NCBI RefSeq assembly: GCF_964204865.1
Contig: NC_135252.1
Span: 17,629,383-17,693,382 of the forward strand
Length of the DNA: 64,000 nt
From: Styela clava
Taxonomy: Eukaryota; Chordata; Ascidiacea; Stolidobranchia; Styelidae
Reading direction: 5' to 3'
Shown here: positions 1 to 48,477 of the stretch, one piece after another
Position numbering within the stretch: position 1 is the stretch's first letter
How the letters are laid out: the number at the start of each line of letters is the position of its first letter
Notes under the pieces: model-generated
What the model saw: the letters and a program-made list of their open reading frames with translations, nothing else
What the model was told of the DNA's origin: nothing
Databases searched by the model: none
Program-made: the position numbers and the translations under genes

Positions 1-1435
1 AAGATCAGGAAAAAATTTTCTGGTGGGTTCCTATCGTGAAAGAAATTGTTCAAGCAGTAAAGAGAGGTAAGGAAAACATTTGTTTTATTGATAAAAAAAA
101 ACAAATTTTAACTAAAATTGTTTGTTTAAATCAGGGATAAGTTCAAAACACTAAATTTTTATATTTTGTTCCATTTGGTTCCAAATTCTCAAAAGTTTGA
201 AAAACCGAGATGAAAATATTCAATTGAAGCTATATCAAATTATCTGTTAAAATTGCAGGTGACCAATCTGAAGATGCTTCAAAAACATTTGACAACAAAG
301 ATCAGGAAAAATTCGTTTGGTGGATTCCTTTAGTGGAAGAAATTGTTCAAGCAGTAAAGAGAGGTAAGGAAAACATTTGTTTTGTTGATAAAAAAACAAA
401 TTTTAACTAAAATTGTTTGTTTAAATCAGGGATAAGTTCAAAACACTAAATTTTTATATTTTGTTCCATTTGGTTCCAAATTTTCAAAAGTTTGAAAAAC
501 CGAGATGAAAATATTCAATTGAAGCTATATCAAATTATCTGTTATTATTGCAGGTGACCAATCTGAAGATGCTTCAAAAACATTTGACAACAAAGATCAG
601 GAAAAATTCGTTTGGTGGATTCCTTTAGTGGAAGAAATTGTTCAAGCAGTAAAGAGAGGTAAGGAAAACATTTGTTTTGTTGATAAAAAAACAAATTTCA
701 ACTAAAATTGTTTGTTTAAATCAGGGATAAGTTCAAAACACTAAATTTTTATATTTTGTTCCATTTGGTTCCAAATTTTCAAAAGTTTGAAAAACCGAGA
801 TGAAAATATTCAATTGAAGCTATATCAAATTATCTGTTATTATTGCAGGTGACCAATCTGAAGATGCTTCGAAAACATTTGACAACAAAGATCAGGAAAA
901 ATTCGTGTGGTGGATTCCTTTAGTAGAAGAAATTGTTCAAGCAGTAAAGAGAGGTAAAGAAAATATTTTCCCAAATGAAAGCAGAAGTTGAAACAAAACA
1001 ATATCATATTATTCATAAATTACATGAGTAACCTATCTGAACATTTTTTGCTTCAATGTGAAGCACATGAATGACAAATGACTTTTGAAGTTGATAAAAT
1101 ACTAAAATTAAATTGTTCATTTGAAAAGTTTGAAATTTCAAGTATATTTGTCTGGATGTAATTGTTACTGATTATACTTATCCTAAACTACAAATACGGT
1201 ATCCGAATTACTCAGTCTAAAGTAACTTGATTTTTGATACCGTGAAATTCAATTATAACAGTTGAAACTTAATCATAGTAAAGACAAACAAAGCGGTTGT
1301 TTCATTCTGTATTTGTCTCGTCTTTATTTCCTTTATATACTAAATATTTAATATTTTTTGTACAATCGTCAATATAGATGATATTAAACGCAGATGTATC
1401 ATTTGATTTCAATAGTTTTCTCATTTGCAGGTTAA
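1..1435 (+). CDS. P1: repeat-exon secreted peptide precursor, 5' end outside window
   Basis: This is the 3' part of a gene of the P family (see P3 at 18052-21327). Exons seen are 1-66 (partial), 259-363, 554-658 and 849-953, then a last exon at 1431 that adds only the bases completing Gly and a TAA stop (1433-1435). The complete exons are each 105 bp, phase 1 at both ends, and encode 35 residues: an acidic stretch starting DQSEDASKTF, then the Trp-rich segment WWIPLVEEIVQAVKR. Introns between units are about 190 bp and near-identical, so the array is a 295-bp tandem repeat. Each exon has a gcag acceptor and a gtaagg or gtaaag donor. The signal-peptide exon must lie left of the window. The sequence is nearly identical to 20155-21700, so P1 and P3 come from a recent duplication. 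The product is not a family I recognise. Confidence 0.75.
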
Positions 1436-2990: not shown

Positions 2991-4735
2991 TTAACCCAAC
3001 AAATAGTCTGACGGAACCAGATCTCCACATCCAAAGGTAGTTAATGTCGCAGGGTCGATTCCTTGCTCATTTGCAAACGACGTCAACTTAGAAATCTCCT
3101 CGCCAGATAACGATGGAGTCCGGGTGAAACATTGCAAAATTTTCTGACCTGCAAAGACAGTAATATAACTAGTGTAAACTGCATTCATTCATAATTTCCG
3201 TTCTCTAAATTACAGACGGAAATATTAATACCAGCGGTTTGTGGGTTACGGCAAAGTCAAACTAATTATCCTGACAGGGTACGCCCGTTCGGAGATCAAT
3301 CGAAAAAATTGTATCTAAAGTGATTGACTAAAACTGTTCACAAAATTTTTGCAAATGAGAAAGGGAATATAATCGTGGGACGAAAAAAAGTATTCGGCCT
3401 ATAAGAATAATATAATTAATAAGTATAAGATAATTGTAAGATATTTCTTTCCTGTATGTCCTTTGCGGCGCGTATTCTTGATATATTTAAAAGCGTAAAG
3501 TCTAATTAGACAGCTTCAGCTAAAATATTATCATATCATTCGCTAAATTTTCACGTTGATTCTGTTCATTTGGAGTTTCGAGTTTTATACATTGTATAGG
3601 CGGATATTGGATGTTATTGTGCAGTGGCTAAACTTCTTTCCGGACAAGAAGCTATCTGATATGCGATCGTACACATATTTATTGTAGTGAATAAATTTTA
3701 TTTCAATGTTTTACGATTTTCTTACCATCGCTTGCAGACGACAGCACACAGAGATAGGTCTCGTAGTTTGTATAGAAGCGATGTCGATGAGAATGGTACC
3801 ATTGTTTATCTGCGAACAAATAAAAGCTCGAATATGTTAAAGAAAATTAGACGTCTTCTAATAACAACGTTATGAAAACCAGAACCTTGGACTTGGGAGG
3901 ATTCAATATTGATGCCTGATCTTCTTTGTGATTGACCATCTAAAAATAATTTTTCAACAAAGTATTGATGAAATTTATGGTATTGTGGATTGAAAAATTC
4001 ATAATCTTTTTTGTTAATGGGGGCGCAATGGTTTGCAACACTTCGAAATAAAACGATAATTGAATGGGATATTTTGTTCTTGTGTGATGACATCATAACC
4101 ATCTCATTAAAATTGCGGCGAGACTCACCCGTTTGTGAATATATCCAATAATAACCCAAAGAGTCCCGCCTCACATCATTGATGATTGAAACATGAGCAT
4201 CTAATTTGTTCCTTTTAGAAATACGAACTATTAGCATTCAGTTACTTTTTACACTCTATTAAAGCACAATTTTTAGATAAATAAATCCTTCGCAAATAAG
4301 CTTACTTGGGATATTTGTATGAGTAAACATTCATATCGTTCTCTGTTGTATTGAAAGGTACCATGAGGTGACATCCCCACAAAACATTCCAGTCCCAGGT
4401 ATTTACACCAAGTGTGAGATACCATACTCCGCATAACTAAACGTAAGAGATTTTAGTACAAATAGCTTTGAGTGTCAGAATTTTCAAGCCATAGTGCGTT
4501 TAATTGTGTTGTTTTAATTGCCGAGGTAACATTCGAAATTAAGTCTGGGTTATTCTTACTTGTTATTGATGTTACAAAAACAAACGGAACTTGATTACAA
4601 TTGTAGTTAATACGACAACATAAAATAACAGCTTACACGTTTCAAGTCGATTTCTTTTCCTGAATATATTTTTCGACTCCGCGCGATTGTTAAAAGCACA
4701 AGAATCACGAAAACAGAACCAAATCTACACTTCAT
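2991..4735 (-). CDS. LpA: lipocalin-like secreted protein, six exons
   Basis: Exons on the minus strand are 4735-4637, 4436-4306, 4211-4129, 3939-3886, 3809-3726 and 3148-2991. All junctions have GT/AG and phases agree, giving 202 residues. Exon 1 encodes a signal peptide (MKCRFGSVFVILVLLTIARS) and RKIYSGKEIDLKR. Exon 2 has a Gly-x-Trp motif (LCGVWYLTLGV) and a WNVLWGCHL block with a Cys. The last exon has FTRTPSLSGEEISKL and ends FGCGDLVPSDYLLG. A Gly-x-Trp near the mature N-terminus, about 180 mature residues, a C-terminal R-x-P-x-L helix and a Cys late in the chain that could pair with the early Cys are the lipocalin layout (known of that family); the assignment is inference. Exon 4 is 24 bp (8 codons) shorter than in LpC. 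It converges on P1. Expected role: secreted carrier of a small hydrophobic ligand, unproven. Confidence 0.65.
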
Positions 4736-7415: not shown

Positions 7416-8982
7416 ATGAAGTGTAGATTTGGTTCTGTTTTTGTGATTCTTGTGCTTTTAACAATCGCGCGGAGTCGAAAGATATATTCAGGAAAAAACA
7501 TCGACTTGAAACGTGTAAGCTGGTATTTTATGTCAACGATGAACTACAATTGTAGTCAAATTCCTTTTTTTATAACATCAATAACAAACAAGAATAACCC
7601 AGGCGTCACTTTTAGTTATGAAGAGTATGGTATCTCACACTTGGTGTAAATTACTGGGATTGGAATGTTTTATGGGGATGTCACCTTGTTGTACCTTTCA
7701 ATACAACAGAGTACGATATTAATGTGTACTCATACGAATTTCGTACAAAGTGAGCTGTTTTGCGAAGTAACTATTATTAGTGTTAATACAAAATGTAACT
7801 GAATGCTAACAGTTCGTAATTCTAGAAGGAACAAATTAGATGCTTATGTTTCAAACATCGATGATGTGAGGCGGGATTCTTTGGGTTATTATCGGATAAA
7901 TTCGAATAAATTATCGGATATCGGAGTTTTACAAGTTTAATGAGATTTCTACGAAACCAAAATATCCCATTTAATTATCGTTTTATTTCGGGATGTTGAA
8001 AACCATTGCGCTCTCATTAAAGAGAAAAATTACGATTTGTTCACGCCATCAATACCATCAATTTCAGCAGAACTTCAAAAAATCTTTTTCCTAGACGGTC
8101 AATGGGAGAACATCAAATTGTTCAGCAAACAAAGAGAGTCAGGCATCATTACTAAATCCTCTCAAGTCTAAGATTTTGATTTTAATAATATTGTTCTTGG
8201 AAGAAGTCTAGTTTTCTTTAACATATTCGAGCTTTTGTTTGTTCGCAGATGATCCATGGTTTATTTCTCATCGACATCGCTTTTATACAGACCTATCTCT
8301 GTGTGCTGTCGTCTACAAGCGATGGTAAGAAAATCATAAAACATGCACTAAATACATTTATTCGCTTGTTCTTCGCCTCCTTTATGTGTACGATAACACC
8401 ATGGCACTATAATCTTCAATATTCGCTTACAAAATATATTCAAAAACTGCAAATGGACAATTTAAATGCGAACTGTATTGTAAACAGTGACAGCAGAGCA
8501 GCACGACAAGAAAAGAAAATGTAGACACTCAAAAGTTCAAACTCAAAGACCTAGGATCATATTGGTTTACAACGTAACACCGATTGTCTTAATTGTTTTA
8601 TTCGTTATCTTATCCATATACACCGATAGTTTTTTTGTCCCGCGATTGTTTTAACATTTTTATTTACGAAAATCTTTGTTAGCAATTTCATTCAATCTCT
8701 TTAGATTCGGTTTTTCGTCGATTAGATCCCGATCGGTGGCACTCTGACAAGAACTCACTCTTGTACATAAACTGCTGGTATTTGTATTTCCGCTTGAAAT
8801 TCAAAGCACAAAAATTATAAATAAATATCGTTTATAACAATTCTCTTATTGTGTTTGCAGATCCGAAACTTCTGCTGCAATGTTTTACCCGGACGCCATC
8901 TTTATCTGGTGAAAAGTTTTCCGAGTTGACGTTGTTTGCAACCAATCAAGGAATCGACACAGCGACATCAACTACCTGCTGA
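7416..8982 (+). pseudogene. LpB: lipocalin-like pseudogene
   Basis: This is a decayed paralogue of LpA and LpC. Exon 1 (7416-7514) is intact and encodes the same signal peptide. Exon 2 (7616-7749) carries an in-frame TGA at 7619-7621 where LpA and LpC have TGC. Exon 3 (from 7829) has Trp to Arg and has lost its donor. Exon 4 (from 8095) retains the GQWENIKLF block but ends in a stop. Exon 5 (from 8249) lacks 8 bp relative to LpA, a frameshift. Exon 6 (8861-8982) keeps FTRTPSLSGE but stops (TGA 8980-8982) before the conserved FGCGD tail. Several independent breaks make it non-functional. It converges on the P2 copies, mirroring the P1/LpA pair in reverse. Confidence 0.85.
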
Positions 8983-11068: not shown

Positions 11069-12497
11069 TTAACCTGCCGAAGAAAAACTAATGAAGTCAA
11101 ATAATACTTATGCGCTGAATAATATTTTTTGAGAAGATTGTAACAAAGATACAAAATATTCCAATACAGAAATAAAGACAACAAGGCGAGTGAAGAATTG
11201 CAGAATAAAACATCCGCTTTGTTTGTCTTTACTATATTTACGGTATTTTTGAAATTTACTCAATATTAAAATCAAAAATATCAAATATTAAATTACTTTG
11301 AACTAGGTTATTTAGATTACGGTATTGATAATTTGGGATAAGTATAATCAGTAACAATTACATCCAGGCAAATATAATTAAAATTTCAAATCTTCCGATT
11401 GAACAATATCATTCTAGTATTTCATCAACTTTAAAAGTAATATATCAGTCATCAATAGATCAAAATAATTTTAATGTTAACATTTTACTAAAGTATGTAC
11501 TTTGTTTTCTGTGAAATATATTAGATTTAATTATGATGATGAATTGATCAGTTTAACTGCTCTTACAATTGTACCAGCAACGTTTTTTAACACAGTGTCG
11601 GTTCTGTCCTTATCATTTAATCCAATATTTTTTTTTCAGATAGGTTACTCATGTAACTTATGAATAATATACAATATAGGTAATGCTTTGATTCAACTTC
11701 TGCTTTCATTTATTAGACAACATATCCGCCTAACCTCTCTTTACTGCTCGAACAATTTCCTCCACTATAGGAATCCACCAGAATCTTTCCTGATCTTTGT
11801 TGTCAAATGTTTTTGACGCTTCATCAGATTGATCACCTGCAATAATTACAGAAAATTTTAAATTTTATATGGCTTCAATTCAATACTTTCATCTCGTATT
11901 TTCAAATTTCTGAAAATTTCGAATTATATAAAACAAAATATATCGGATTACACGGATATAACGGATTATTGTCTTTACCTCTCTCTACTGCGTTAACAAT
12001 TTTTACCACTAAAGGAATCCACCAAAATCTTTCATGATCTTTGTTATCAACGGTTTTCGAGGATTTCCCAGATTGGTTACCTGCAATAATTACAAAGAAT
12101 TTCAAATTTGATATAGCTTCAAATTTAAAATAGGATTATTTATTTTTCATTTTCGTTTTTTTTTTTTGATAAAATTTAAATCATATAAAATCAATACGTG
12201 AAAATTTGTGATGCATTTATCAACAACTGAATCGGATGGAGATTTAGATACAATAATGTGATTTACAGAGTTGTTGAGTTTTTTTCGACATTTGGGATTT
12301 TAAAAATATATCATATATCATTCTGGAATTGTTCGTCAGCATTTAAAAATTTTCGATAAAGATTTAGTGAAAATACAGGTTCAAATGTTATACCGACCAA
12401 ATTCCAGAAATAGTTACCAAATGTGTTGGCAAATGATTGAGAAATGCTCACGTAATAATTAGATAAATTGAACTTACGAGATTCAAGAGACTTTGCC
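11069..12497 (-). pseudogene. P2b: 5'-truncated duplicate of the P2 peptide precursor
   Basis: Exons 2 (12497-12478), 3 (12080-11979), 4 (11836-11735) and the stop exon (from 11073, TAA 11071-11069) are present and identical in layout to P2a. The signal-peptide exon is missing because the duplication boundary falls at its very end. It has no start codon, signal peptide or promoter of its own. It could still be joined to P2a by read-through splicing, since unit exons are phase compatible, but the P2a stop exon lies between them. Most likely it is not expressed alone. It could also be an assembly duplicate. Confidence 0.7.
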
Positions 12498-12924
12498 CTG
12501 TAAAATTAAATGTAGACTATATTATAGCTTTCCGTAACTTATCAATCCGGAAATTGTTAGAACATTTTATAATTGAGCTCGTTTGGAATCATTGAAAAAT
12601 ACATGCATCTTTTTTTATACGCAAAGTTATATTTGGGTTAAGATCAAACATGGATCAATATTAAACAGTGGAATTATTGACGATATTGATAAATAATTTC
12701 GAAATTGGATAAATACTCTCGTCTATCTTGGTATTTTATTCCTGAATGAAATCTTCAACTTTTTCATGTTGCCAGAAAAAAGTTCTCAACAAAAATTAAT
12801 TTAAAGTACATTGATAGAATTACGTTGTGTTGTTTAGTTCATATGAAAATTGAAATGTATCAGATTGAATGAATCAGAACAGAACGCGGCGATGAGGTAA
12901 AACTAACCTGGTTAATCCAGGTTA

Positions 12925-13618: not shown

Positions 13619-16007
13619 CTCTTTTTTTTTTTAAATACAGATAGTTGGTTCTTAATATTTGATCAGCTGCTCGTTTATAGAGTTGCTTGCTAGGCGGATA
13701 AATAATATTGGTAACTAAGCAAGCTATTAGTGTAATTTTTTCGGATCATAAAATTTGCAGTTTTTCACAATGAACCCACCAATATATGATGCGAAAATGT
13801 AGCAGATGTTGCAAATGCACAATGAGCCAAACCAAAAACGTTTGAGGCTCGCAGATAGATCACTGACATAGTGTTGAAATATATACAGCAACATCATAAA
13901 GTTTTATCATTTACTTCAGTCTGTACAAAACAGTTCACAGAATTGTTCGTATAGTAAGCGGTTTATTTTATGTTTATGTCCTAATATCTTTCTTGGAATC
14001 CATCGACCAAAATTTTACAAACGTCCATGCTTTGATGTAATTTATTCTGAATAATTAGGTTAGATTTCACACGAGAAAATATGTAAATCAAAATCGGAAG
14101 TAGACACGGGTCATCATTGAATCGTCATCTGTATTTTCAAATTTGCTCGATAAGACTTAACCTGCCGAAGAAAAACTAATGAAGTCAAATAATACTTATG
14201 CGCTGAATAATATTTTTTGAGAAGATTGTAACAAAGATACAAAATATTCCAATACAGAAATAAAGACAACAAGGCGAGTGAAGAATTGCAGAATAAAACA
14301 TCCGCTTTGTTTGTCTTTACTATATTTACGGTATTTTTGAAATTTACTCAATATTAAAATCAAAAATATCAAATATTAAATTACTTTGAACTAGGTTATT
14401 TAGATTACGGTATTGATAATTTGGGATAAGTATAATCAGTAACAATTACATCCAGGCAAATATAATTAAAATTTCAAATCTTCCGATTGAACAATATCAT
14501 TCTAGTATTTCATCAACTTTAAAAGTAATATATCAGTCATCAATAGATCAAAATAATTTTAATGTTAACATTTTACTAAAGTATGTACTTTGTTTTCTGT
14601 GAAATATATTAGATTTAATTATGATGATGAATTGATCAGTTTAACTGCTCTTACAATTGTACCAGCAACGTTTTTTAACACAGTGTCGGTTCTGTCCTTA
14701 TCATTTAATCCAATATTTTTTTTTCAGATAGGTTACTCATGTAACTTATGAATAATATACAATATAGGTAATGCTTTGATTCAACTTCTGCTTTCATTTA
14801 TTAGACAACATATCCGCCTAACCTCTCTTTACTGCTCGAACAATTTCCTCCACTATAGGAATCCACCAGAATCTTTCCTGATCTTTGTTGTCAAATGTTT
14901 TTGACGCTTCATCAGATTGATCACCTGCAATAATTACAGAAAATTTTAAATTTTATATGGCTTCAATTCAATACTTTCATCTCGTATTTTCAAATTTCTG
15001 AAAATTTCGAATTATATAAAACAAAATATATCGGATTACACGGATATAACGGATTATTGTCTTTACCTCTCTCTACTGCGTTAACAATTTTTACCACTAA
15101 AGGAATCCACCAAAATCTTTCATGATCTTTGTTATCAACGGTTTTCGAGGATTTCCCAGATTGGTTACCTGCAATAATTACAAAGAATTTCAAATTTGAT
15201 ATAGCTTCAAATTTAAAATAGGATTATTTATTTTTCATTTTCGTTTTTTTTTTTTGATAAAATTTAAATCATATAAAATCAATACGTGAAAATTTGTGAT
15301 GCATTTATCAACAACTGAATCGAATGGAGATTTAGATACAATAATGTGATTTACAGAGTTGTTGAGTTTTTTTCGACATTTGGGATTTTAAAAATATATC
15401 ATATATCATTCTGGAATTGTTCGTCAGCATTTAAAAATTTTCGATAAAGATTTAGTGAAAATACAGGTTCAAATGTTATACCGACCAAATTCCAGAAATA
15501 GTTACCAAATGTGTTGGCAAATGATTGAGAAATGCTCACGTAATAATTAGATAAATTGAACTTACGAGATTCAAGAGACTTTGCCCTGTAAAATTAAATG
15601 TAGACTATATTATAGCTTTCCGTAACTTATCAATCCGGAAATTGTTAGAACATTTTATAATTGAGCTCGTTTGGAATCATTGAAAAATACATGCATCTTT
15701 TTTTATACGCAAAGTTATATTTGAGTTAAGATCAAACATGGATCAATATTAAACAGTGGAATTATTGACGATATTGATAAATAATTTCGAAATTGGATAA
15801 ATACTCTCGTCTATCTTGGTATTTTATTCCTGAATGAAATCTTCAACTTTTTCATGTTGCCAGAAAAAAGTTCTCAACAAAAATTAATTTAAAGTACATT
15901 GATAGAATTACGTTGTGTTGTTTAGTTCATATGAAAATTGAAATGTATCAGATTGAATGAATCAGAACAGAACGCGGCGATGAGGTAAAACTAACCTGGT
16001 TAATCCA
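12925..16007. repeat. 3.08-kb tandem duplication, copy 2
   Basis: See copy 1 (9847-12919). This copy is continuous with the intact signal-peptide exon and upstream region of P2a, so it is the likely source. Copy 2 has a longer poly(A) tract (starting near 13585) and a few single-base differences, such as cgagaaaa where copy 1 has cgaaaaaa. Confidence 0.9.
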
Positions 16008-16057
16008 AAACTGCAGATCATCATGGCCAAAACAAATACTGCAATTTTTCCAGACAT
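14157..16057 (-). CDS. P2a: two-unit secreted peptide precursor
   Basis: Exons are 16057-15996 (start codon, signal peptide MSGKIAVFVLAMMICSFGLT), 15585-15566 (20-bp micro-exon), 15168-15067 (unit 1), 14924-14823 (unit 2), and a last exon from 14161 with TAA at 14159-14157. Phases agree throughout, giving 96 residues. The units are 34 residues, one shorter than in P3 (RFWW for KFVWW or KIFWW). Unit 1 contains RFWWIPLVVKIVNAVER and unit 2 RFWWIPIVEEIVRAVKR, so only unit 2 ends in Lys-Arg. The layout suggests a secreted precursor cut into amphipathic peptides. It is divergent from P3, with starts 2.0 kb apart and a TATA box about 83 bp upstream of the ATG. I recognise no known family. Confidence 0.75.
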
Positions 16058-17962: not shown

Positions 17963-17969
17963 TATAAAA
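17963..17969 (+). promoter_or_regulatory. TATA box of P3
   Basis: TATAAAA in the context gtgtataaaatgcgc, 83 bp upstream of the P3 ATG, mirrored at P2a (16140-16146). Confidence 0.65.
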
Positions 17970-18051: not shown

Positions 18052-21000
18052 ATGTCTGGAAAAATTGCAGTACTCGTTCTGGCCATGATAATCTGCAATT
18101 TTGGATTAACCAGGTTAGTTTTACCTCATCGCCGCGTTCTGTTTTCATTCAATCTGATATATTTCAATTTTTATATGAACTAAACAATACAGGTTTATTC
18201 TAGCAATGTACTTTAAATTAGTTTTTGTTGAGAAACTTTTTTCTGGCAACATGAAAAAGTTGAAGATTTTATTCAGAAATAAAATGCTAAGATAAACGAG
18301 AGTATTTATCCACTATCGAAATTATTTTTAAATTTCGTTAATTCCATTGTTTATTATTGATTCATGTTTGATCCTAATTCAAATACAACTTTGCGTATAA
18401 AAAAAGATGCATGTCTTTCTCAATGATTCCAAACGAGCTCAATTATAAAATGTTCTAACAATTTCCAGATTGATAAGTTACGGAAAGCTATAATATAGTC
18501 TACATTTATTTTCACAGGGCAAAGTCTCTTGAGTCTCGTAAGTTCAATTTATCTTCTTTATTACGTGAGCATTTCTCAAACATTCGCCAACACATTTGGT
18601 AACTATTTCTGGAATTTGGTCGGTTTGCCATTTGAACCTGTATTTTCACTAAAACTTTTATTCGAATCGAAAAATTTAAAATGCTGACGAACAATTCCAG
18701 AATGATATATGATATATTTTTAAAATCCCAAATGACGAAAAAAACTCAGCAACCCTGTAAATCACATTATTGTATCTCAATCTCCATCCCATTCAGTTGT
18801 TAGTAAATGCATCACAAATTTTCACGTTTTATTTTATATAATTCAGATTTTATCGACAACAACAAAATAAACGAGAACGAAAAAAAATAAAATTGTTTGA
18901 ATTTGAAGCTATATCGGGTTTGAAATTCTTTGTAATTATTGCAGGTGACCAATCTGAAAAATCCTCGAAAACCTTGGACAACAAAGATCAGAAAAAAATT
19001 TTCTGGTGGATTCCTATCGTGAAAAAAATTGTTCATGCAATAGAGAGAGGCAAAGGAAATATTTTATTTTATAGGATAAAAACCGAATTTAAAAGCAATT
19101 TCATTCATTTACGATATTTTGTTTGTTCGGGGGACGAGTTGGAAAACACACTGAATTTTTATATTTTATCCCATTTGGTTCGGAATATTTCAAAAATATC
19201 TGAAATTACGAGATGAAAGTATTTCATTGAAGATATATAAAATTTAAAATTCTTTGTAATTATTGCAGGTGACCAATCTGAAGAAGTCTCAAAAAACTTT
19301 GATAACAATGATCAGGAAAAATTTTTCTGGTGGGTTCCTATCGTGAAAGAAATTGTTCAAGCAGTAAAGAGAGGTAAGGAAAACATTTGTTTTATTGATG
19401 AAAAACAAAATTTTAACTAAAATTGTTTGTTTAAATCAGGGATAAGTTCAGAACACTAAATTTTTATATTTTGTTCCATTTGGTTCCAAATTTTCAAAAG
19501 TTTGAAAAACGAGATGAAAATATTCAATTGAAGCTATATCAAATTATCTGTAATTATTGCAGGTGACCAATCTGAAGATGCTTCGGAAACATTTGACAAC
19601 AAAGATCAGGAAAAATTTGTGTGGTGGATTCCTTTAGTGGAAGAAATTGTTCAAGCAGTAAAGAGAGGTAAGGAAAACATTTGTTTTATTGATAAAAAAA
19701 CCAAATTTTAACTAAAATTGTTTGTTTAAATCAGGGATAAGTTCAAAACACTACATTTTTATATTTTGTTCCATTTGGTTCCAAATTTTCAAAAGTTTGA
19801 AAAAACGAGATGAAAATATTCAATTGAAGCTATATCAAATTATCTGTAATTATTGCAGGTGACCAATCTGAAGATGCTTCAAAAACATTTGACAACAAAG
19901 ATCAGGAAAAAATTTTCTGGTGGGTTCCTATCGTGAAAGAAATTGTTCAAGCAGTAAAGAGAGGTAAGGAAAACATTTGTTTTATTGATAAAAAAAACAA
20001 ATTTTAACTAAAATTGTTTGTTTAAATCAGGGATAAGTTCAAAACACTAAATTTTTATATTTTGTTCCATTTGGTTCCAAATTTTCAAAAGTTTGAAAAA
20101 ACGAGATGAAAATATTCAATTGAAGCTATATCAAATTATCTGTAATTATTGCAGGTGACCAATCTGAAGATGCTTCAAAAACATTTGACAACAAAGATCA
20201 GGAAAAAATTTTCTGGTGGGTTCCTATCGTGAAAGAAATTGTTCAAGCAGTAAAGAGAGGTGAGGAAAACATTTGTTTTATTGATAAAAAAAACAAATTT
20301 TAACTAAAATTGTTTGTTTAAATCAGGGATAAGTTCAAAACACTAAATTTTTATATTTTGTTCCATTTGGTTCCAAATTTTCAAAAGTTTGAAAAACCGA
20401 GATGAAAATATTCAATTGAAGCTATATCAAATTATCTGTTATTATTGCAGGTGACCAATCTGAAGATGCTTCAAAAACATTTGACAACAAAGATCAGGAA
20501 AAATTCGTTTGGTGGATTCCTTTAGTGGAAGAAATTGTTCAAGCAGTAAAGAGAGGTAAGGAAAACATTTGTTTTGTTGATAAAAAAACAAATTTCAACT
20601 AAAATTGTTTGTTTAAATCAGGGATAAGTTCAAAACACTAAATTTTTATATTTTGTTCCATTTGGTTCCAAATTTTCAAAAGTTTGAAAAACCGAGATGA
20701 AAATATTCAATTGAAGCTATATCAAATTATCTGTTATTATTGCAGGTGACCAATCTGAAGATGCTTCGAAAACATTTGACAACAAAGATCAGGAAAAATT
20801 CGTGTGGTGGATTCCTTTAGTAGAAGAAATTGTTCAAGCAGTAAAGAGAGGTAAAGAAAATATTTTCCCAAATGAAAGCAGAAGTTGAAACAAAACAATA
20901 TCATATTATTCATAAATTACATGAGTAACCTATCTGAACATTTTTTGATTCAATGTGAAGCACATGAATGACAAATGACTTTTGAAGTTGATAAAATACT

Positions 21001-21327
21001 AAAATTAAATTGTTCATTTGAAAAGTTTGAAATTTCAAGTATATTTGTCTGGATGTAATTGTTACTGATTATACTTATCCTAAACTACAAATACGGTATC
21101 CGAATTACTCAGTCTAAAGTAACTTGATTTTTGATACCGTGAAATTCAATTATAACAGTTGAAACTTAATCATAGTAAAGACAAACAAAGCGGTTGTTTC
21201 ATTCTGTATTTGTCTCGTCTTTATTTCCTTACTAAATATTTAATATTTTTTGTACAATCGTCAATATAGATGATATTAAACGCAGATGTATCATTTGAAT
21301 TCAATAGTTTTCTCATTTGCAGGTTAA
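18052..21327 (+). CDS. P3: seven-unit secreted peptide precursor
   Basis: Exons: 18052-18113 (signal peptide MSGKIAVLVLAMIICNFGLT), 18518-18537 (20-bp micro-exon, AKSLES), seven unit exons of 105 bp each (18945-19049, 19269-19373, 19563-19667, 19859-19963, 20155-20259, 20451-20555, 20746-20850), and 21323-21327 (stop TAA). Phases agree, giving 273 residues. Each 35-residue unit has an acidic, hydrophilic half (DQSEDASKTFDNKDQEK) and an amphipathic Trp-Trp-Pro half (WWIPLVEEIVQAVKR). Units 2-7 end in KR followed by Gly, a furin/prohormone-convertase type site; unit 1 ends in ER. Unit exons are symmetric, so any can be skipped or duplicated without a frameshift. Exon 3 uses a GC donor (gcaaag). 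Not a family I recognise. Candidates are a multi-copy host-defence or signalling peptide precursor, or a structural repeat protein. Confidence 0.8.
19269..20850 (+). repeat. 295-296-bp tandem exon-intron array in P3
   Basis: Unit exon starts are 19563, 19859, 20155, 20451 and 20746, a period of 295-296 bp; the first interval (19269 to 19563) is 294. Exon and intron are both nearly identical between units, showing recent unequal exchange or conversion. The final units match those of P1 (period 295). Confidence 0.9.
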
Positions 21328-22117
21328 GTCTTATCCAGCAAATTCGAAAATACAGATGACGATTCGATGATGTCCCGTGTCTACTTCCGATTTTGATTTA
21401 CATATTTTCTCGTGTGAAATTTAACCTAATTATTCAGAATAAATTACATCAAAGCATGGACGTTTGTAAAATTTTGGAACATACAACATATATATATATA
21501 TATATACAATAAACCGCTTACTATACGAACAAATCTGCGAACGGTTTGTACAGGCTGAAGCAAATCGTATAACTTTATGATGTAACTGTATATGTTGCAA
21601 CACTACATCAGTGATCGTTCTGCCAGTCATTAACGTATCTGGGTTTGCTTATTGTGCATTTGCAGCATCTGCTGCCTCAAAAATTTTCGCATCAATTATT
21701 GTTTGAATTTTGAAATCAAGGTGCAGGGGACAGTAAAATAGTTTTGTAACGACGTAACTTACATTAATGACTTGCTTAGTTACCAATATTATCTATTCGC
21801 CTAGCAAGAGACTCTATAAAGGAGCAGGTGATCGAATATTAGGAATCAACCATCTGTATTTGAAAAAACGAGTATTTTACTTTGGAATATCCTGCATCAT
21901 TCACTAAAACTCGTGAATCTGACATAGAAATATCGTTTTTGTTGCAACACTTGAAGTATATTTGCCAGCAGTGCATTTCGTACCGTTGTTTCGCCACGCA
22001 AACACAATGAAACTATTCTCATTGTTTGCTATATACATTTTGATCCGTATATTAGCTCATTACTGGTAGAAATCGATGTTTCAATTCCAGTCGTATTAAA
22101 AATAGACAATTGTAAAC
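21328..22117. other. 3' flank of P3
   Basis: Closely matches 1436-2400 downstream of P1 but lacks the MITE inserted there at 1871-2057. It has a (TA)n tract near 21488 and AATAAA-like sites. No gene seen. Confidence 0.5.
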
Positions 22118-23450: not shown

Positions 23451-25133
23451 TTAACCCAACAAATAGTCTGACGGAACCAGATCTCCACATCCGAAGGTAG
23501 TTAACGTCGCTGCGTCGATTCCTTGTTCAGTTGCAAACGACGTCAACTTGGAAATCTCCTCGCCAGATAACGATGGAGTCCGGGTGAAACATTGCAAAAT
23601 TTTCTGACCTGCAAACACAGTAAGACAACTATTGTAAACGGCATTCATTCATAATTTCCGTTCTACGCCCGTCCGGAAACCAATCGAAGAAATTCTATCT
23701 GAGGTGATTGACTAAAACTGTTCACAAAAATATTTGCAAATGAGAAAGGGAATGCATCGCTGGGACGAAAAAAAGTATTCGGTCTATAAGAATAATATAA
23801 TTAATAAGTATAAGATAATTGTAAGATATTTCTTTCTTGTATGTCCTTGGCGGCGCGTATTTTCGAGATATTAAAAATCTAAATCTAATTGGACAGCTTC
23901 GGCTAAAATATTATCATGTTTCGCTAAATTTTCCCGTTGATTTTGTTCATTTGGAGTTTCGAGTTTTATACATTGTATAGGCGGATATTGGATGTTATTG
24001 TGCAGTGGCTAAACTTCTCTCCGGACAAGAAGCTACTGATATGCCATCGTACACATATTTATTGTAGTGAATAAATTTTAATTCAATGTTTTGCGATTTT
24101 CTTACCATCGCTTGCAGATGACAACACACAGAGATAGATCTCGTAGTCTGTAAAAAAGCGATGTGGATGAGAACGATACCATTGATAATCTGCGAACAAA
24201 TAAAAGCTCGAATATGTTAAAGAATATTAGACGTCTTCTTAGAACAACATTATAAAAACCAGAACCTTGGACTGGAGAGGATTTAGTAAAGATGTCTGAT
24301 CTTCTTCGTTCGTTGAACAATTTGATGTTCTCCCATTGACCATCTAAGAATTAATTTTTTTAAATAGTATTGATTAAATTTATGGTATTGTGGATTGAAA
24401 AATTCATAATCTTTCTCGTTAATGGGCGCCCAATGGTTTGCAACATTTCGAAATAAAAGGAAACGATAACTGAATGGGATATTTTGGCTCATAGCCATCT
24501 CATTAAAATTGCGAGACTCACTCATTTGTGAATTTATCCAATAATAACCCAAAGAATCCCGCCTCACATCATCGATGATTGAAACATGAGCATCTAATTT
24601 GTTCCTTTTAGAAAAAATAAGAACCGTTATTATTTGCTCGCATTTTACACACGAAAAAAGCACAATTCTTAGATAAATAGTTATTTCGCAAAACATCTCA
24701 CTTGGGATATTCGTATGAGTAAACATTCATATCGTTCTCTGTTGTGTTGAAAGGTACCATGAGGTGACATCCCCACAAAACATTCCAGTCCCAGTTATTC
24801 ACACCAAATGTGAGATACCATACTCCGCATAACTAAAAGTAAAAGATTTTAGTACAAATAGCTTTAAGTGTAAGAATTTCAAGCCACAGTGCGTTTAATT
24901 GTGTTGTTTTAATTGTCTAAGTAACATTCAAAACTAAGTCTGAGTTATTCTTCCGTGTTATTGATGTAATGAAAAAACAAACGGAAGTTGACTACCATTA
25001 TAGTTAATTCACCAATACAAAATAACAGCTTACACGTTTCAAGTCGATGTCTTTTCCTGAATATATCTTTCGACTCTGCGCGATTGTTAAAAGCACAAGG
25101 ATCCCAAAAACTGAACTAAATCTACACCTCATC
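23451..25133 (-). CDS. LpC: lipocalin-like secreted protein, six exons
   Basis: Minus-strand exons are 25133-25035, 24832-24702, 24604-24522, 24343-24266, 24189-24106 and 23608-23451; all sites and phases agree, giving 210 residues. It is a close paralogue of LpA: same signal peptide type, Gly-x-Trp block LCGVWYLTFGV, WNVLWGCHL, DDVRRDSLGYYWI in exon 3, GQWENIKLFNERRRSDIF in exon 4, HPHRFFTDYEIYLCVLSS in exon 5 and FTRTPSLSGEEISKL plus FGCGD in exon 6. Exon 4 keeps 8 codons missing from LpA and aligns with LpF exon 4, so LpC has the ancestral length. It converges on P3 with 2.1 kb between stop codons. Predicted to be secreted; lipocalin assignment as for LpA. Confidence 0.7.
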
Positions 25134-29653: not shown

Positions 29654-31568
29654 ATGTCTCTGCAAAATTCTGTGTTAGTATTTGTTGTGTTTCTATCGAG
29701 TGCATGGAGTCAAGAAATATATTCAGGAAACGAAATAGATATCGAACGCGTAAGTTACAAAATCAGATTTTAGTAAAAAGCAAAAACTACATTTACAAAG
29801 TTGCCCTCTTATTTGAACCTGAAAGAATATAAATCAAGGGTGTGCAGCATTCGATACAGGAAGGCCAGATACTGGGTGGCGTGCGTCGTTCGCTTCCCAA
29901 TAGCTAGCTGTTAGGGCATTGTAACGTCATAGACATAGATAATAAATTTGACTCAGGTATAGTCGTTACAACGCAATGGGATTGAAATTACTCGCAGGCA
30001 CCAGATTAAACTAAATTATAAACTCCTTTCGTGAGCCGCACTCCATTCAAAATTGGCGCTTTACGGGTGCCCTACAGTTTTTCTTCGTGAGCCGCATTTC
30101 GCCCGTGGGACGTAGGTTGCACGTCCCTGATCTAAATGACTATCATCGCTCATAAAATATTTCCATTTTCGTCGGCTTTTTTCGAATGTTACCTTTACCT
30201 CAAATCTATGGTCATTTTGTTGTAGACAATTTAGGGGAATAGTTTGGTATTAAATATGATACTTCTATATAGCATAAAATAGTTTGTAATGCTTTCGTAA
30301 TTATACAAAATAAATATATTTTGCTCTCAGTTACGTGGAGTTTGGTTTCTAACATTCGGTGTTGATTATTGGAACTGGAATGTTTTGTGGAAATGTCACA
30401 TCGTGGCACCTTTCAACATTACAGTGAATGAGATGAATATGTACACTTACAATATTCCTAAGTAAGTTTTACTTATTTTCAGGTCAAAAAAATATATATA
30501 TATATATTGCACGAACAAAAGATCAATGCTCAAATATATGGACACGAATTCTAAAGTGAAGTAGTACGGGTATGCAATTTTTCACGTTAGACTATCGGTA
30601 CTGCAGGACTTCGTCTGACCACCAGAAAGCAACCAACGCGAACCGTGGAACCGACACAGGGTGCTCAATTTTTAATTTTGTTGACGACATCGCACACAAA
30701 ACAAACGAATCCCATTGAGGACACAGAAATATTTGAAATCAATAAAAGTAATAGCCCTATAGCGACAAATGCAATCTTCAGGAACTGGTAATTACAAAGC
30801 AATTGGTCTATACTCTATAGTAATTAAAGAGAAGGGCGATTTTTTATAACAACAAGAACAACCATCTATAGGTTCATTTCGTGTCCAAAAATAATTAACA
30901 AACGAGTAGTAACAACCGTTTTAACTGATTTCTAACAGAGATAAATCGGAGGCTCCACATACCGTAATAACAGCCAGCAAGCGGGATTCTTTGGGCCAAT
31001 ATTGGATGCAAACGCACAGCGGTAAGCGTGCTTTTAATTTTATTCATTATACATGTCTGTTCTGAACTTCGTAGTTGATATAATACCAACCTGATGTCAT
31101 ACCAATAATCCAATCAGTTGACCGAAATACGAAACTTCTTTCAGAAGGTGAAAAATAAAATAGTTGTTTCCGAAGCAAAAAATCAAACAAGTAAATGTAC
31201 TCCTCCTTACTTACAGGACAGACCTGGTTTCACTCACATCCGCACCTTTGCTCAACCGATTACTCTACATTCTACAGTCACTGGATGCCATTGAGTGATG
31301 GTGAGTATTCTCTTCCCGAGTGAAAAAGAAAATTTAATTTTACAACCTTCTCAATGTCCGAGCTGCTTATCACAGTCGACCCCATAAATATTTTTTTTTT
31401 GCAGGACGGAATCTTTTTCAAATTTTAACCCGAACGCCAACTATAAATGGTGAGGACATTACCAAATTTACGGCCCTTGCAGCTAAGCAAGGAGTCGACC
31501 CTGCCACGTTAATAACATTTGGATGTGGCGATTTGATTCCATCTGACTATTTACTAGCTCAGATATGA
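29654..31568 (+). CDS. LpD: lipocalin-like gene with a frameshift in exon 4
   Basis: Exons are 29654-29749 (signal peptide MSLQNSVLVFVVFLSSAWS), 30331-30461 (LRGVWFLTFGVDYWNW, KCHIVAPFN), 30939-31021 (ASKRDSLGQYWM), 31217-31300 and 31405-31568 (LTRTPTINGEDITKF, FGCGDLIPSDYLLAQI). Phases are consistent. A candidate exon 4 at 31118-31190 has good splice sites but is 73 bp, one more than a multiple of three, so a TAA at 31156 falls in frame. Because exon 4 is symmetric, skipping it leaves an open 185-residue protein. Either this gene skips exon 4, it is newly inactivated, or the extra base is a sequencing error in the A/T run. Intron 1 carries an hAT-like insertion. Confidence 0.65.
29835..30129. 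mobile_element. hAT-like MITE in LpD intron 1
   Basis: Starts caagggtgtgcagc and ends with the mirrored ggttgcacgtccctg. Flanks atataaat and atctaaat match at 7 of 8 bases, an aged 8-bp TSD. A related short copy lies in Rheb intron 6 (52077-52249). Confidence 0.7.
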
Positions 31569-33832: not shown

Positions 33833-35146
33833 GACTAGAAAGAAGGCGTGGTACGCCATATGAATAAACCATATGAAAATCCTATTCTTGCCTACGTCTC
33901 AATTTCCCAATGCCACCATTTCCAGTTTTTACCAATACTCCACGACATATTAAAATTAAATATATTTGCTGAATTGAAAATACTATGGCGCGTACTTTTG
34001 TGTGTATTAGGCCTACTATTGCGCAATATTGCGTAGTAAACGAAAGAAATACTATACAACGAAGAAGTTCTGAATATTGTTAAGAGCATGAATTGATAAA
34101 CACGAAAGAACACGTTATAAAGAGCCAAGGGGGACAATAATTATTTTATAAATTTTTAAAATTGAGTACTTTAAAATTAGAATTGACAAAGCATACTGCA
34201 ACCTCCTGATTTATTTGAACCCGTTATGCTGAAATCTTTTAAATTACCGAAGCCCGGTAACACAAAATCGCATCACGAACTGATAAGCAATGTTTATGGT
34301 TTCGTTTCGACAATATATTTCATGCACACGAACTCTCTTTCAATCATTCATTTTGATCGAGATATTCACGGGGTCGGGACAATGAAGTCGAGATATTCAG
34401 TATTTGTGATTATTGTGTTTTTATCATTTGCGTGGAGTCGAGAAATATATTCAGGAAATGATATTGATATGGAACGCGTAAGTATTTCAAATAGGTTATT
34501 AGTTTGTTTTTTACGGAATGTGCGAAAAAAAATTCTGTTGTCGTGCACTTCTTATAAGGAAGTATGCACAACTTATAAGGAAGGTGTTAAACCAGAGGCT
34601 TTTGGACCAGAAGACAACAATTTTGTCCACCTAGACTGGCGGGCCGGGCCATGTAAGTTTGACGTAAAAAGTTACAATATTTACAGTGTTGCAAAAGTGG
34701 AAAACAATAAGCCAGGCTAGTGCCAAAACGAAATTTGATCGCAATCTCAACAAATACCATGGGCTATTTTCAGCTAAAACATCAAAATTGGTTTTAGTTT
34801 GGTCGTAGCAGAATCAGCAGGGCCAGATTGAATTACCCAACGGGCCGTAGTTTGTCCATGTCCGTGTTAAACTATGAAAAAATCAGAAATACGAATACAC
34901 TTAATAAAAATACCAAAGGGTTATTGCTACGTCGCGTATGAACTTTTCAATTTTTGTTCACTCATCTCCATGATGTAAGCCAAAGTTTATCAATAAAATA
35001 AAACTAGCATTTTTAGTAAGCGGATCTAAATAAATAAGAATCTAGTTTTCATGCGGAAGTGCAGCCGTCTCATATTCTCTTTTTTCGCAAGAGCATATCA
35101 TTCTGGGTACCCGTCTTGGTCGATAACAATCATGCATTCGTTAGAT

Positions 35147-36000
35147 CAGGGGTCACCAAACTTTTCTGACCGCGGGGCAGGTATGTACTCAGTACTCAAA
35201 CTGTGTTGAAACGGGCCGGACAAATATATTGGTCAATGCAATACATTCAATTCCCAAAATTTGAAAAAATCCATTCAATTTATTTAACAATATCTACATC
35301 ACTGAAGTCTTGAATATTAAATTCTATATCGCAGAATATAGGTCAAGAACATCATGGCAAAACAAATATACAATATGTCTGCCAACTATCCTGAGGTTAG
35401 CTGTCATAACAATTGCTGTCATGAATATCCGCATGTAAGCAGTACAAAAGTTGTACTATTTTCGCAAAATGTACGTTGACGTTTAAAATAGCAGGATAAA
35501 CGTACACAACAACATTTTTGCCCAAAGCACGCGCCACGAATGTACAAGTGCATCCTTCGCAGAAACGTCTTATTTGATTTGTATTTAAATTTATGAATCA
35601 CGATAAAAAACGACGCTCCGGAGGTATCCGTACCAAGATGTCGCACAACCTGAACAATCCTAACCTGGTACACATACTATGTTCAGGTTGTGCGCCATCT
35701 TGGTACGAATACTTCGGAAGCACCCCACCCCAAAAACTAACGAATAGCATTCAAAATCGCGAAAACGAGATATTATTTGAAACCACAACTGAAAATTTAG
35801 AGCGGAGGCGAAACGATATATTGTTGAGTCACGTTTCGTATTTTGCTTATTGGCTAATGTTACGAAATGAACAAGAAAGTCGATGCTCGGGAAACATCCC
35901 TTAAAAATAAAATGAATAAATTTTTTCATGTTATTGCGGGCCAAATGAAAGGACGTCACGGACCGGATCCGACCCGCGGGCCGTAGTTTGGCGAACCCTG
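35147..36000. mobile_element. hAT-like transposon in LpE intron 1
   Basis: Left end caggggtcaccaaacttttc, right end the mirrored tagtttggcgaaccctg. Flanks cgttagat (35139-35146) and cattagat (36001-36008) match at 7 of 8 bases. A palindromic element is nested inside at 35616-35726. No transposase. Confidence 0.8.
35616..35726. repeat. Palindromic fold-back element, nested
   Basis: Two inverted halves (ccgtaccaagatgtcgcaca and the mirrored tgtgcgccatcttggtacg) with an internal cctggtacacatacta. Same family as 27616-27714. Confidence 0.65.
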
Positions 36001-36929
36001 CATTAGATGAACAAAATCCCGTCATCGTTTTTCTCATTTGTTGATTATTCAAGTCCTATGTTCTCGATGCTAACTCTATGAAAAAAGAAAATGTGAAAGC
36101 AGCACGTGGTTTCAGGGTGATAGAAAGACAAGCAAGACGATTTTCAATTCCTCGCATTTTCCATAATTTTTTATGTTATCGAAGATGAATAAAACAGTTC
36201 GCAGAAATGAGACTGGTATCAAAAGTCGATATTAAGATTAATTTCACCTCAAGAAATATACTTGAGATTAAATATCATCCGATCATGGTGTACGTTTTGC
36301 ATCTCATATATGTACATAATAGGTGTTTTCACGTCGATTGTGAATAAATATGTTTAGGAGGGTTACCTAGAAAAACTTGGCAGTAAGAGAAGGCCACGGA
36401 GAGCAATAACAAACGCGGATTGGAAGCGTTAAAGCTCTACGAAAACTGAAATATAAATTTCTTTACAGATACAAGGGGTTTGGTTCCTGACGTTAGGAGT
36501 AGATTACTGGTCCTGGAATGTTCTGTGGAAATGTCATATTATTGCTCCTTTCAACGTAACAGATAATAGAATGAATCTTGGCACCTATAATTTTTTCAAG
36601 TAAGTTCAATGCCTCGTTATGTTTTGCAAAAAACAATGTATATCTGAGAAGTAACTACTTTCTTTATTGTCTGACAGGAATAAATCGAAGGCCCCGCTTT
36701 CCGTCATTGACGACGTCAAACGCGATTCTCAGGGTCAGTTTTGGATGTAAGGGCCTAATGGTAAGAGCATTTTCAAAACCAGTCATTTACCTAATTTCAA
36801 TTCCATTAGTTCCGATATCTTTAATCCGATGTTTATACAGAAAAAATATGGGAAAACTTAGACACAAAGCTGTTTGGAAATAAGAGAAAACTTATATCGA
36901 ACATGGAACATCCTTCTCAAGGTAAGTAG

Positions 36930-40077: not shown

Positions 40078-42744
40078 ATGGAGTCAAGATATTCAGCGTT
40101 TGTGATTATTGTGTTTTTATCTTTTGCATGGAGTCGAGAAATATATTCAGGAAATGAAATTGATTTGGAACGAGTAAGTATTTTGATTTGAATGAAAAAT
40201 ATTTCTCAAACTCATTTTGGTTTCGACATTGGTTTTGCCGAATCTGGAAGAAGCATGGATTAAAGGAATTAGACAGTGCATGCAATAAATTTACTGGCGT
40301 CATTTATATTACTTCGAACTCAACATAAATCTTCGAATGTGTGCGTGAGCTTTAACATTTCATTCAATTATGTATGTCCATGATACAGCACAAAATTTTC
40401 CATTCAGAACAAAAGTATGACTATATCGCAATATTAGATAGAGAAATCAATGGTATTCAAAGTTTATATTAATATTATATTTATTTATTTATAAAAAAAA
40501 TATTCGTTAGGTTTAAAAATAATATCAGTCGGACGATATCCAATTATTTTAGAATATATTTCAGAGAGCTTCCTGAAAATTTTGAAACAAGAGTGGGTCG
40601 TGGACAGAATTGATAGACTAGGCTTTGAAATACGAATAAATATGAATTATATGTATATATGATATGTACTTTCAGTTACAAGGGGTTTGGTTCCTGACGT
40701 TTGGTGTAGATTACTGGACATGGAATGTGTTGTGGAAATGCCATATTATTGCTCCTCTCAACGTAACAGATAATAGAATGAATGTTGGCACGTACAATTT
40801 TCTCAAGTAAGTTTTATGTCTCAGAAAATAATGAAAACGTCGAAAATCTGAGAAATAACTGTTTCAGTTCTCATCTCCTCACTCAAAATATTGGTTTGCT
40901 TTGAATGCGGATGGTGTAAACTAATCCCAAAACACAGCCCAATCATGCCCACTTCAAGTAAACAATTTTAAATTGAAATCCACCGTGTCTGCGGTGTGTT
41001 TATGTTACCAAAGTTAGACACCCGAACGACACTCGTTCGTGTTTTTAATTTTTTTTTTCAAATATTTGTTTGCGAGTGTAATATGGTTAAACTGGCACAA
41101 GTGTTTCTACTTGTTTTAAACCTTATCAGAGGCTTTGCCAGTTTTCCCAATCTACTGTGTGTTCATTGTGTCGTTTTGCGGGTTTTTTTTTCGGGGAAAT
41201 CAAAATAAACGTATACTTATCTGACAGTGATAAATCGGAGACACCGCTTTCCGTCATGGTCGACATCACGCGCGACTCTCAGGGTCAGTTCTGGATGGAA
41301 GCGACTACAGGTGAGCTATGAAGCTAGTCAATTAGCCTACTTGATGTTAATCCTAATAGTAACAAATTGTTTGATCCAATGTTTACGCAGAAAGAATATG
41401 GGAAAAATTAGATGGAAAGCTGTTTGAGGAGAAAAAATCAATTTTTACAAACATGGATCATCCTTCTCGAGGTGAGTGCAGTTACTCCCATCGCCAGATC
41501 ACCACATGTAAACAGAAAACGTTAACTGATGTTTGTTTACTTGGTATTTACAGAATTACCCTGGTACTACTCTCATCCAAACTTTTATGCGACCGACTAC
41601 TTTACTTTCATCAGCAACCTGATGATAATGGAGGATGGTAAGTAGTTTTACGTGACTGGTGGAATGAACAGAGCGGGCTCTGTTACGCAGGCATAGGCCT
41701 ATGTCCAGACTGGCTATCCAATCGAACCCTCTGATCTTAGTATAATATATCTAGCTTGGATTAAAATCTTTCTGACCTACAACGGAAAATGTTATTCAAA
41801 CAACTAAGCATAAAAGACCATAAAAAGCTACCATCCGACGCGCGATGAGAAATCATCTCGAACAATGTGTTGCGTACTGTAACTTGTAAGGGGTGTTTGT
41901 CCTATGTCAGTAAGGACGAATATTATTGGACACGTAGTGGACATAACGATCGTTTCAATATTATGTTGTTCTTGTTGTTCTTGTTATTTGACACAGGATA
42001 ACACACCTAGTGGAAATATTAAAAAACTGCTTTTCTCTTCGAATACTGGACCAATTGCTATGAAATTTTCAGTGGTTGTAGATAAAATAAATATTGAACG
42101 TAGACAACAACAGTCTACTAAGTGAACTAAACAAGAAATGATTGCACGTAATACTACGCGCCTAAAGAACGTGGCAGAGAAAAAGGGAGGGTGAATATTT
42201 TGAATCAAACTGAAAGGACGGCGGAAATTCAGGAAATGTGCAAAAAACTTAAACCTCAATTGTGTTAAGGTATAGTGTACAATTTGGATCCGTATCCACG
42301 TGTGTCGCTTCACAAATGAATATACGATAAGTAATCTTTGCATGCTGTTCTAATTACCATATAATACTGAATATATAATCTTAAATCTGACAACACATTT
42401 TTTCGGTTTCGCGTGAATTTAGAAATCGCTCTGTTACGGATCCGAAATACAGGGTGCCACAAAAAAACCTCCCAAATGTTTTCCACCCTGTATATATGGA
42501 TTCCCCATCTCTTGTATACATTGAATTACTAAACAAACGGTTGTTGCAATCGATAATAAATATTATTTTTTTTTGTTTTAAAGGTCGGAAGCTTTTCAAA
42601 ATTTTTACCAGGAATCCGACAATAAATCCTGAAGATATTACAAAGTTCACAGCACTCGCAGTTGAACAAGGAGTTGATCCAACCACGTTGACGAAATTCG
42701 GATGTGGTGACCTGACCCCCTCGGAATATATGTTAGCTCAATAA
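40078..42744 (+). CDS. LpF: intact lipocalin-like secreted protein
   Basis: Exons are 40078-40173, 40676-40806, 41228-41310, 41391-41471, 41554-41637 and 42584-42744, all with GT/AG sites and matching phases, giving 211 residues. Signal peptide MESRYSAFVIIVFLSFAWS; then REIYSGNEIDLER; exon 2 LQGVWFLTFGVDYWTWNVLW with KCHIIAP and an N-glycosylation site (NVT); exon 3 DSQGQFWMEATTG; exon 4 RIWEKLDGKLFEEKKSIF; exon 5 YYSHPNFYATDYFTFI; exon 6 FTRNPTINPEDITKF and a C-terminal FGCGDLTPSEYMLAQ. Gly-x-Trp near the mature N-terminus, two Cys that could pair, and the R-x-P helix give the lipocalin layout. It is the best-preserved member of the + strand subfamily and the reference for judging LpD, LpE and LpG. 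Confidence 0.75.
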
Positions 42745-44500: not shown

Positions 44501-44808
44501 TGTAATGAATGAGAAATATAGTACCTTGATATAAGGCTTTATTCAACTTAAATTTAAAGCACTCTTAGAATGAATCTAAAATAATATAACAAGCAAATGT
44601 TATTAAACAAGAAAACAAATACGTATCGAATTGCTGATGCTAACAGTAAGCGGCTCAATAGTTAAATGAATAAAGTTGAAAGAATTAACACACTACATCT
44701 ACAGCACAGCAATGATTGGTGTCTGATTTAAAACGCCACAGCAATCATCGCTTGACTGCAGCTGTATAAACAAATAGATACATTGAGTTGCATTTCCAAG
44801 TTATCACA
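44501..44808 (-). repeat. 3' LTR
   Basis: 308 bp, TG...CA ends on the minus strand; near-identical to 48478-48787. Directly upstream on the minus strand the purine-rich aaggtggcggtgaatg could act as the polypurine tract. Confidence 0.9.
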
Positions 44809-44820
44809 TTCACCGCCACC

Positions 44821-48432: not shown

Positions 48433-48460
48433 GCTTGTACCAGAATACTCTTGTGAAATG

Positions 48461-48477
48461 ATTTAAGTTGAATAAAT
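48461..48477 (-). promoter_or_regulatory. Candidate self-complementary primer binding site
   Basis: On the minus strand the bases immediately inside the 5' LTR read atttattcaacttaaat. No tRNA 3' end (TGG-type) match is evident. Sixteen bases are perfectly complementary to part of the LTR itself (48515-48530), about 38 nt upstream in the transcript. This is the arrangement of self-primed elements such as Tf1. Confidence 0.5.

Follow-up and report, generated by a model that had tools for sequence, protein, structure and literature searches.

Clavanins and clavaspirin are antimicrobial peptides from the haemocytes of Styela clava, and processing at dibasic sites is standard in secretory precursors. 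The clavanins are described as haemocyte peptides of 23 residues (PMC9966394, PMC10608444) that are C-amidated (PMC10608444), and clavanins A and D are reported from the endostyle (PMC9953650). Styelins and botryllin, which are compared here by description only, are likewise haemocyte peptides from secreted ascidian antimicrobial precursors, with a single mature peptide per precursor as described in PMC9966394. Amplification through tandem peptides and spacers is a feature of the apidaecin and hymenoptaecin precursors of bees and ants, where one apidaecin peptide is encoded per exon according to PMC3415428. The precursors described below also combine a signal peptide with tandem peptide units, but the animals and the peptides are unrelated and the likeness is one of analogy only.

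The locus studied here, gene B, lies within a 64-kb stretch of DNA, referred to as the window; C1, C2, C3, C10, C13 and C17 denote contigs of the assembly. Gene B consists of a signal-peptide exon, a 20-bp micro-exon, seven unit exons of 105 bp each in phase 1-1, and a terminal exon that closes the frame with Gly-stop (Table 1). This chain matches base for base the one put forward in the original prediction, and a 296-bp exon-plus-intron repeat was detected by two tools. All acceptors are AG and all donors are GT, save for a GC donor at unit 1. The conceptual product comprises 273 aa, and its signal peptide, like those of the other multi-unit precursors, was judged by eye. The sequence supports the expected secreted precursor of several units, each unit encoded by an exon of its own and divided into an acidic and an amphipathic half. 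A TATAAA motif is present 71-89 bp upstream of the ATG in genes B and C, in one clavanin gene and in one gene of the second cluster described below. The GC donor at unit 1 is common to genes B and F (unit 1 of gene F lies in locus L010) and is possibly a weak site that favours skipping of this unit. Because the unit exons are in phase 1-1, any number of them can be skipped in frame, so that the number of units may vary between transcripts. In the region 21323-21396, at the terminal exon, use of an acceptor lying 6 nt farther on would give an in-frame tail of 22 residues, VLSSKFENTDDDSMMSRVYFRF, in place of the stop. Across six genes this tail has four variable sites, of which three are third codon positions, a suggestive pattern. 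The second cluster contains a TDDDS stretch related to the tail.

Seven paralogues, gene B among them, form a cluster of 45 kb, with units at C3:17605991-17650231, partly beyond the window. Six of the paralogues possess a signal exon and together contain 28 units. The short genes E, G and C (3, 2 and 2 units) lie on the minus strand and the long genes F, A and B (6, 8 and 7 units) on the plus strand, arranged as head-to-head pairs E/F, G/A and C/B with ATG-to-ATG distances of 1979, 1988 and 1995 bp. All three pairs appear to stem from tandem duplication of one pair. Gene D, the seventh paralogue, has its breakpoint inside the signal exon, of which the final 12 bases are left, and its micro-exon and two units are identical to those of gene C. 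Related sequences form a second cluster on C2 (12.02-12.05 Mb), where three signal exons for a similar signal peptide were found along with 20-bp micro-exons and unit exons in tandem; several of these unit exons are damaged, some with stops. One partial unit, stop-free across the matched part, is found on C17. A further divergent pair with an ATG-to-ATG distance of 1779 bp lies at C3:10638086 and C3:10640306 (L032, L045), and its units resemble those of LOC120342297 (FPLQWIVPIVKAIKGL).

Table 1. Features of the window and related loci; positions refer to the window unless a contig is named.
Feature	Position	Strand	Remarks
Gene B, TATA box	17963..17968	+	read from sequence
Gene B, signal-peptide exon	18052..18113	+	62 bp, ends phase 2, encodes MSGKIAVLVLAMIICNFGLT(R)
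Gene B, micro-exon	18518..18537	+	20 bp, encodes AKSLES, enters in phase 2 and leaves in phase 1
Gene B, unit 1	18945..19049	+	GC donor, net positive, ends ER
Gene B, unit 2	19269..19373	+	
Gene B, unit 3	19563..19667	+	L type
Gene B, unit 4	19859..19963	+	I type
Gene B, unit 5	20155..20259	+	I type
Gene B, unit 6	20451..20555	+	L type
Gene B, unit 7	20746..20850	+	L type by sequence
Gene B, terminal exon	21323..21443	+	Gly-stop, TAA 21325-21327; 3′ UTR to AATAAA 21438-21443
Gene C, signal exon	15996..16057	-	divergent partner of gene B, 1995 bp ATG-to-ATG
Gene C, micro-exon	15566..15585	-	20 bp
Gene C, unit 1	15067..15168	-	34 residues
Gene C, unit 2	14823..14924	-	34 residues; P0121 matches
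Gene C, terminal exon	14060..14161	-	predicted
Gene D	11073..12919	-	tandem duplicate of gene C, offset 3078-3088 bp; micro-exon 12497-12478, units 12080-11979 and 11836-11735, terminal exon from 11073
Gene A, 3′ part	1..1435	+	units 1-66 (cut by window start), 259-363, 554-658, 849-953
Gene A, terminal exon	from 1431	+	stop 1433-1435
Second secreted family	3932-4735	-	
Second secreted family	7416-8102	+	
Second secreted family	24391-25132	-	
Second secreted family	29669-31008	+	
Second secreted family	34382-36747	+	
Second secreted family	40078-41297	+	
Ty3/gypsy element	44584-48787	-	1203-codon open frame, 225-bp terminal repeats 99% alike
Choline/carnitine acyltransferase gene exons	59128-63780	-	
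Tandem-repeat frames behind clavanin-type cassette	C1:22047393, C3:16861313, C10:21157591, C13:3398031		L040, L043, L046, L047

The seven-unit product of 273 aa was unmatched, with none of 51 candidates at E ≤ 1 in the protein search, whereas a profile of four short precursors retrieved four proteins among 118 candidates, all of them Styela clava entries named "uncharacterized protein" (LOC120342882 isoform X4, LOC120336745 isoforms X2 and X4, and LOC120342297 isoform X5). P0121, i.e. LOC120342882 isoform X4 of RefSeq, has 96 aa and is 98% identical to the two-unit gene C (window 16057-14161), and it has the exon layout predicted for this gene, down to the final Gly. P0122 and P0124, two isoforms of one locus, are one unit apart, as expected from skipping of symmetric exons; both are database models, not reads. 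A search of the PDB with a 133-residue piece gave weak matches only (best E 0.11). Against Pfam, a piece of gene B with four units gave matches that were rejected as repeat artefacts; the best, to DUF6264 (E 1.2e-4), reaches 22.8 bits against a cut-off of 31, with no single stretch passing. Neither these loci, nor multi-unit clavanin-type precursors, nor the locus names of the Styela clava proteins were found mentioned in open-licence PMC papers.

Although the original prediction recognised no family, the layout of gene B is that of the clavanin genes in the same genome. The Clavanin profile PF05452, which a clavanin precursor sequence matches at E 1e-52, matches the genome twice (E 2.0e-32 and 5.3e-32). 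In both genes a signal exon of 47 bp, which ends in phase 2, is followed by the 20-bp micro-exon TGCAAAATCTCTGGAGGAAA, encoding AKSLEE, and by a last exon that starts in phase 1. With these two genes as the standard, the family likewise shows a phase-2 signal exon, an AKSLE micro-exon leading from phase 2 to phase 1, and a following phase-1 coding exon. The micro-exon of gene B is identical in length and phases to those of both clavanin genes and shares 13 of its 20 bases with clavanin; no AG-20nt-GT window attains 13 identities in seven further loci of 9.9 kb (363 windows, at most 12 identities). The DNA itself shows the chain of exons, the clustering of the paralogues and a 5′ cassette in common with the clavanin genes of this genome.

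A micro-exon pattern including the splice sites, built from genes B, X3 and clavanin and allowing at most two mismatches, matches 19 times in 376.6 Mb, and its reversed control not once. Seven matches belong to the cluster on C3 (gene D among them), three to the cluster on C2, two to the clavanin genes and three to other related loci on C3, while four lie ahead of tandem-repeat frames. A family-type signal peptide is found close to 17 of the 19 matches, the exceptions being gene D, with its cut signal exon, and C2:12046448, near which none of the queries used detected a signal exon. For signal exon X2 of the second cluster, no match to the micro-exon pattern was found nearby.

Outside the 5′ cassette the likeness to clavanins in sequence is slight. 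Comparison of the family profile, one row of which is partly artificial, with that of clavanin gives E 5e-4 and a probability of 31.5%. P0123 scores 15.0 bits against PF05452 (E 0.03), under the Pfam gathering score of 21 bits, and PF05452 is unlisted for P0121, P0122 and P0124 as well as for the four-unit, 168-residue piece of gene B. BLASTP with clavanin gave no useful match. Homology of the 5′ UTR to that of clavanin was considered and discarded as too weak by a shuffle test, in which 53, 20 and 357 of 1000 shuffles were equally good for B, C and X1, respectively. Clavanin genes encode a single His/Phe-rich peptide of 23 residues in the last exon, whereas the members of the family have 2-8 unit exons, whose Trp-rich halves are 16-17 residues long and contain 0-1 His. 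Because the family stays below the Pfam cut-off and contains no His-rich 23-mer, it is classed here as clavanin-related by gene architecture and not as a clavanin.

In a ten-unit alignment of both clusters the first half of the unit (DQSEDASKTFDNKDQEK) is acidic, with Q3, S4, D12 and D15 invariant; the leading G of first units in this alignment is an artefact of unspliced reading, and splicing to the micro-exon gives R. The second half forms an amphipathic, Trp-rich stretch, and for ten C-terminal halves of the family 1 to 7% of shuffles have an equally high helical moment. Together with the last two residues the C-terminal halves carry a charge of 0 to +2; the neutrality of the L-type helices sets them apart from classic cationic peptides and tells against the reading favoured below. 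In genes B, F, C, E and G the first unit closes with ER and has a net charge of +1 to +3; gene A is without this type of unit. At the border between the halves position 18 is K or R in all 28 units of the six signal-exon genes and position 17 is E in 26. Gly-Asp follows the helix at all 22 internal unit junctions, and Gly-stop closes each of the six precursors. The order is that of clavanins, in which a basic residue, K, closes the acidic stretch and the amphipathic peptide is followed directly by Gly-Asp; cleavage ahead of the helix and at Gly-Asp is therefore preferred here.

Gene B is therefore best regarded as a clavanin-related secreted precursor gene in which an exon for an acidic propiece and an amphipathic peptide was amplified in tandem, with clavanin-like processing of the product; we consider this reading probable. 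After removal of the signal peptide, the units would be cut as in the clavanin precursor, i.e. after the basic residue that closes the acidic stretch (...D-Q-E-K | I-F-W-W...) and again at the Gly-Asp that opens the next unit, with the Gly perhaps converted into a C-terminal amide. Several Trp-rich amphipathic peptides of 16-17 residues in two main subtypes, presumably membrane-active, would thus be released, and the acidic spacers of 17 residues would hold them neutral until then. The net-acidic character of the units, which had seemed puzzling for an antimicrobial peptide, would cease to be a difficulty with the acidic half acting as a propiece, which is its role in clavanins. The analogy with the clavanins makes host defence, in haemocytes or the pharynx, the most likely function.

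Two other fates of the precursor have to be weighed at the unit borders. The original prediction envisaged cleavage at Lys-Arg into about seven peptides of 33 residues ending in AV, acidic-amphipathic in character. On this reading the precursor would be a prohormone-type polyprotein cut by proprotein convertases, and the peptides would serve as signals or in defence. Dibasic processing is indeed usual in secretory precursors, the predicted Lys-Arg before Gly in units 2-7 of gene B was recovered in the splice-chain reading (unit 1 ends in ER), and throughout the cluster on C3 the last residue of the unit is R (28/28), preceded by K in 20 units. The remaining units of the cluster end in ER (6/28) or QR (2/28), however, and among eight hand-picked units of the second cluster and RefSeq, damaged units excluded, none ends in KR, while all eight have K or R at position 18. 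Since KR is not universal, it is not a feature of the family, whereas the basic residue before the helix is; cleavage into 33-mers is accordingly doubtful, and the prohormone reading as a whole appears unlikely. The missing terminal KR in these eight units would suit an uncleaved secreted repeat protein, such as a structural, tunic or mucus component, with the units as segments of one chain, and so would the four other loci at which a clavanin-like front end precedes, by predicted splicing, long tandem-repeat frames. The conserved E-K/R at the border between the acidic and hydrophobic halves speaks against such a protein, and amphipathic hydrophobic halves are, in our judgement, odd for a soluble repeat protein that remains uncut; this possibility is given little weight. 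The two modes of cleavage lead to distinct and measurable masses: the calculated values are 2109.26 Da for IFWWVPIVKEIVQAVKR and 2110.21 Da for FVWWIPLVEEIVQAVKR as amides of 16-17 residues, and 3848.93 and 3849.87 Da for the 33-mers from cuts at Lys-Arg.

It is highly improbable that the locus is a decaying array of duplicated exons of low function maintained by recombination. The loss of an intact signal exon in gene D, the stops in some units of the second cluster and the partial copy on C17 would fit such decay, but in the six signal-exon genes all 28 units have open frames with splice sites on both flanks, pN/pS between units is 0.44-0.62, and RefSeq models are available. Between short and long genes pN/pS is about 0.37 for the acidic half and 1.1 for the helix half, the pairs not being independent. 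In the long genes the consensus I and L units differ at eight nucleotides within a helix tract of 25 bp, changing five residues. Over 40 pairs of I and L units the helix halves are 14.3% different, compared to 1.4% for the acidic halves and 2.2% for the following intron. In units of type u2 the difference lies mostly in the acidic half (14.8% vs 5.7%), which implies that diversity is not limited to the helix. From these comparisons, the introns seem to be homogenised and the exon types held apart, whether by selection or through micro-conversion from a short gene. Positive selection is not claimed to explain the divergence of the exons by itself, since synonymous differences are elevated as well and u2 differs in the other half.

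Under the clavanin-type reading of gene B, the clavanin family would be bigger and more diverse than described, so far with one peptide per precursor; it would also provide a chordate example of exon-by-exon peptide amplification, as in the bee apidaecins, and the diagnostic micro-exon would offer a simple genomic handle for further members. More tentatively, a single secretory cassette of a signal exon and a 20-bp AKSLE micro-exon might serve at least three kinds of product, namely single-peptide clavanins, exon-amplified Trp-helix polyproteins and long tandem-repeat proteins containing Tyr or Trp. In the Trp-helix kind, symmetric unit exons under the control of GC and GT donors would then act as a splice-tunable peptide amplifier, in which recombination homogenises the introns and selection keeps the two helix subtypes apart. 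The loci of the tandem-repeat kind have a clavanin-like signal peptide and a 20-bp micro-exon encoding ANSLEE in L047 and AKSLEE in the other three. The frames to which these are putatively spliced contain repeats such as DQQDNGKGYYPPTY, YDQQDAGKGWH and NHDSAKTWGNYDQQ, and the DQQDNGK repeats are similar to the C-terminal propiece of clavanin. In contrast to the family of gene B, the repeats lie within a single open frame, as hydrophilic units of about 11-15 residues with no hydrophobic helix.

Genes of a second secreted multi-exon family, whose signal resembles MKCRFGSVFVILVLLTIARSRKIYSG, are interspersed with those of the cluster, and more copies lie to the left of the window. The frames tested gave no Pfam match over the cut-off, with a weak APOBEC4-like hint at E 0.0095. 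Elsewhere in the genome, GH6 (PF01341) has a single match over the cut-off (E 1.5e-6), which adjoins exons read as cellulose synthase; fusion of cellulose synthase with GH6 is a mark of tunicates. An insect origin of the DNA was rejected on this evidence, and the Styela clava proteins retrieved above and the two clavanin genes point to Styela clava or a very near relative as the source; COX1 gave no match in the assembly. The ascidian cellulose synthase gene is described as a known case of horizontal transfer (PMC6339383). The joined exons match 190 proteins at E ≤ 1e-10, and PF01341 is present in eight among the 120 listed, the one named protein of these being from Oikopleura dioica.
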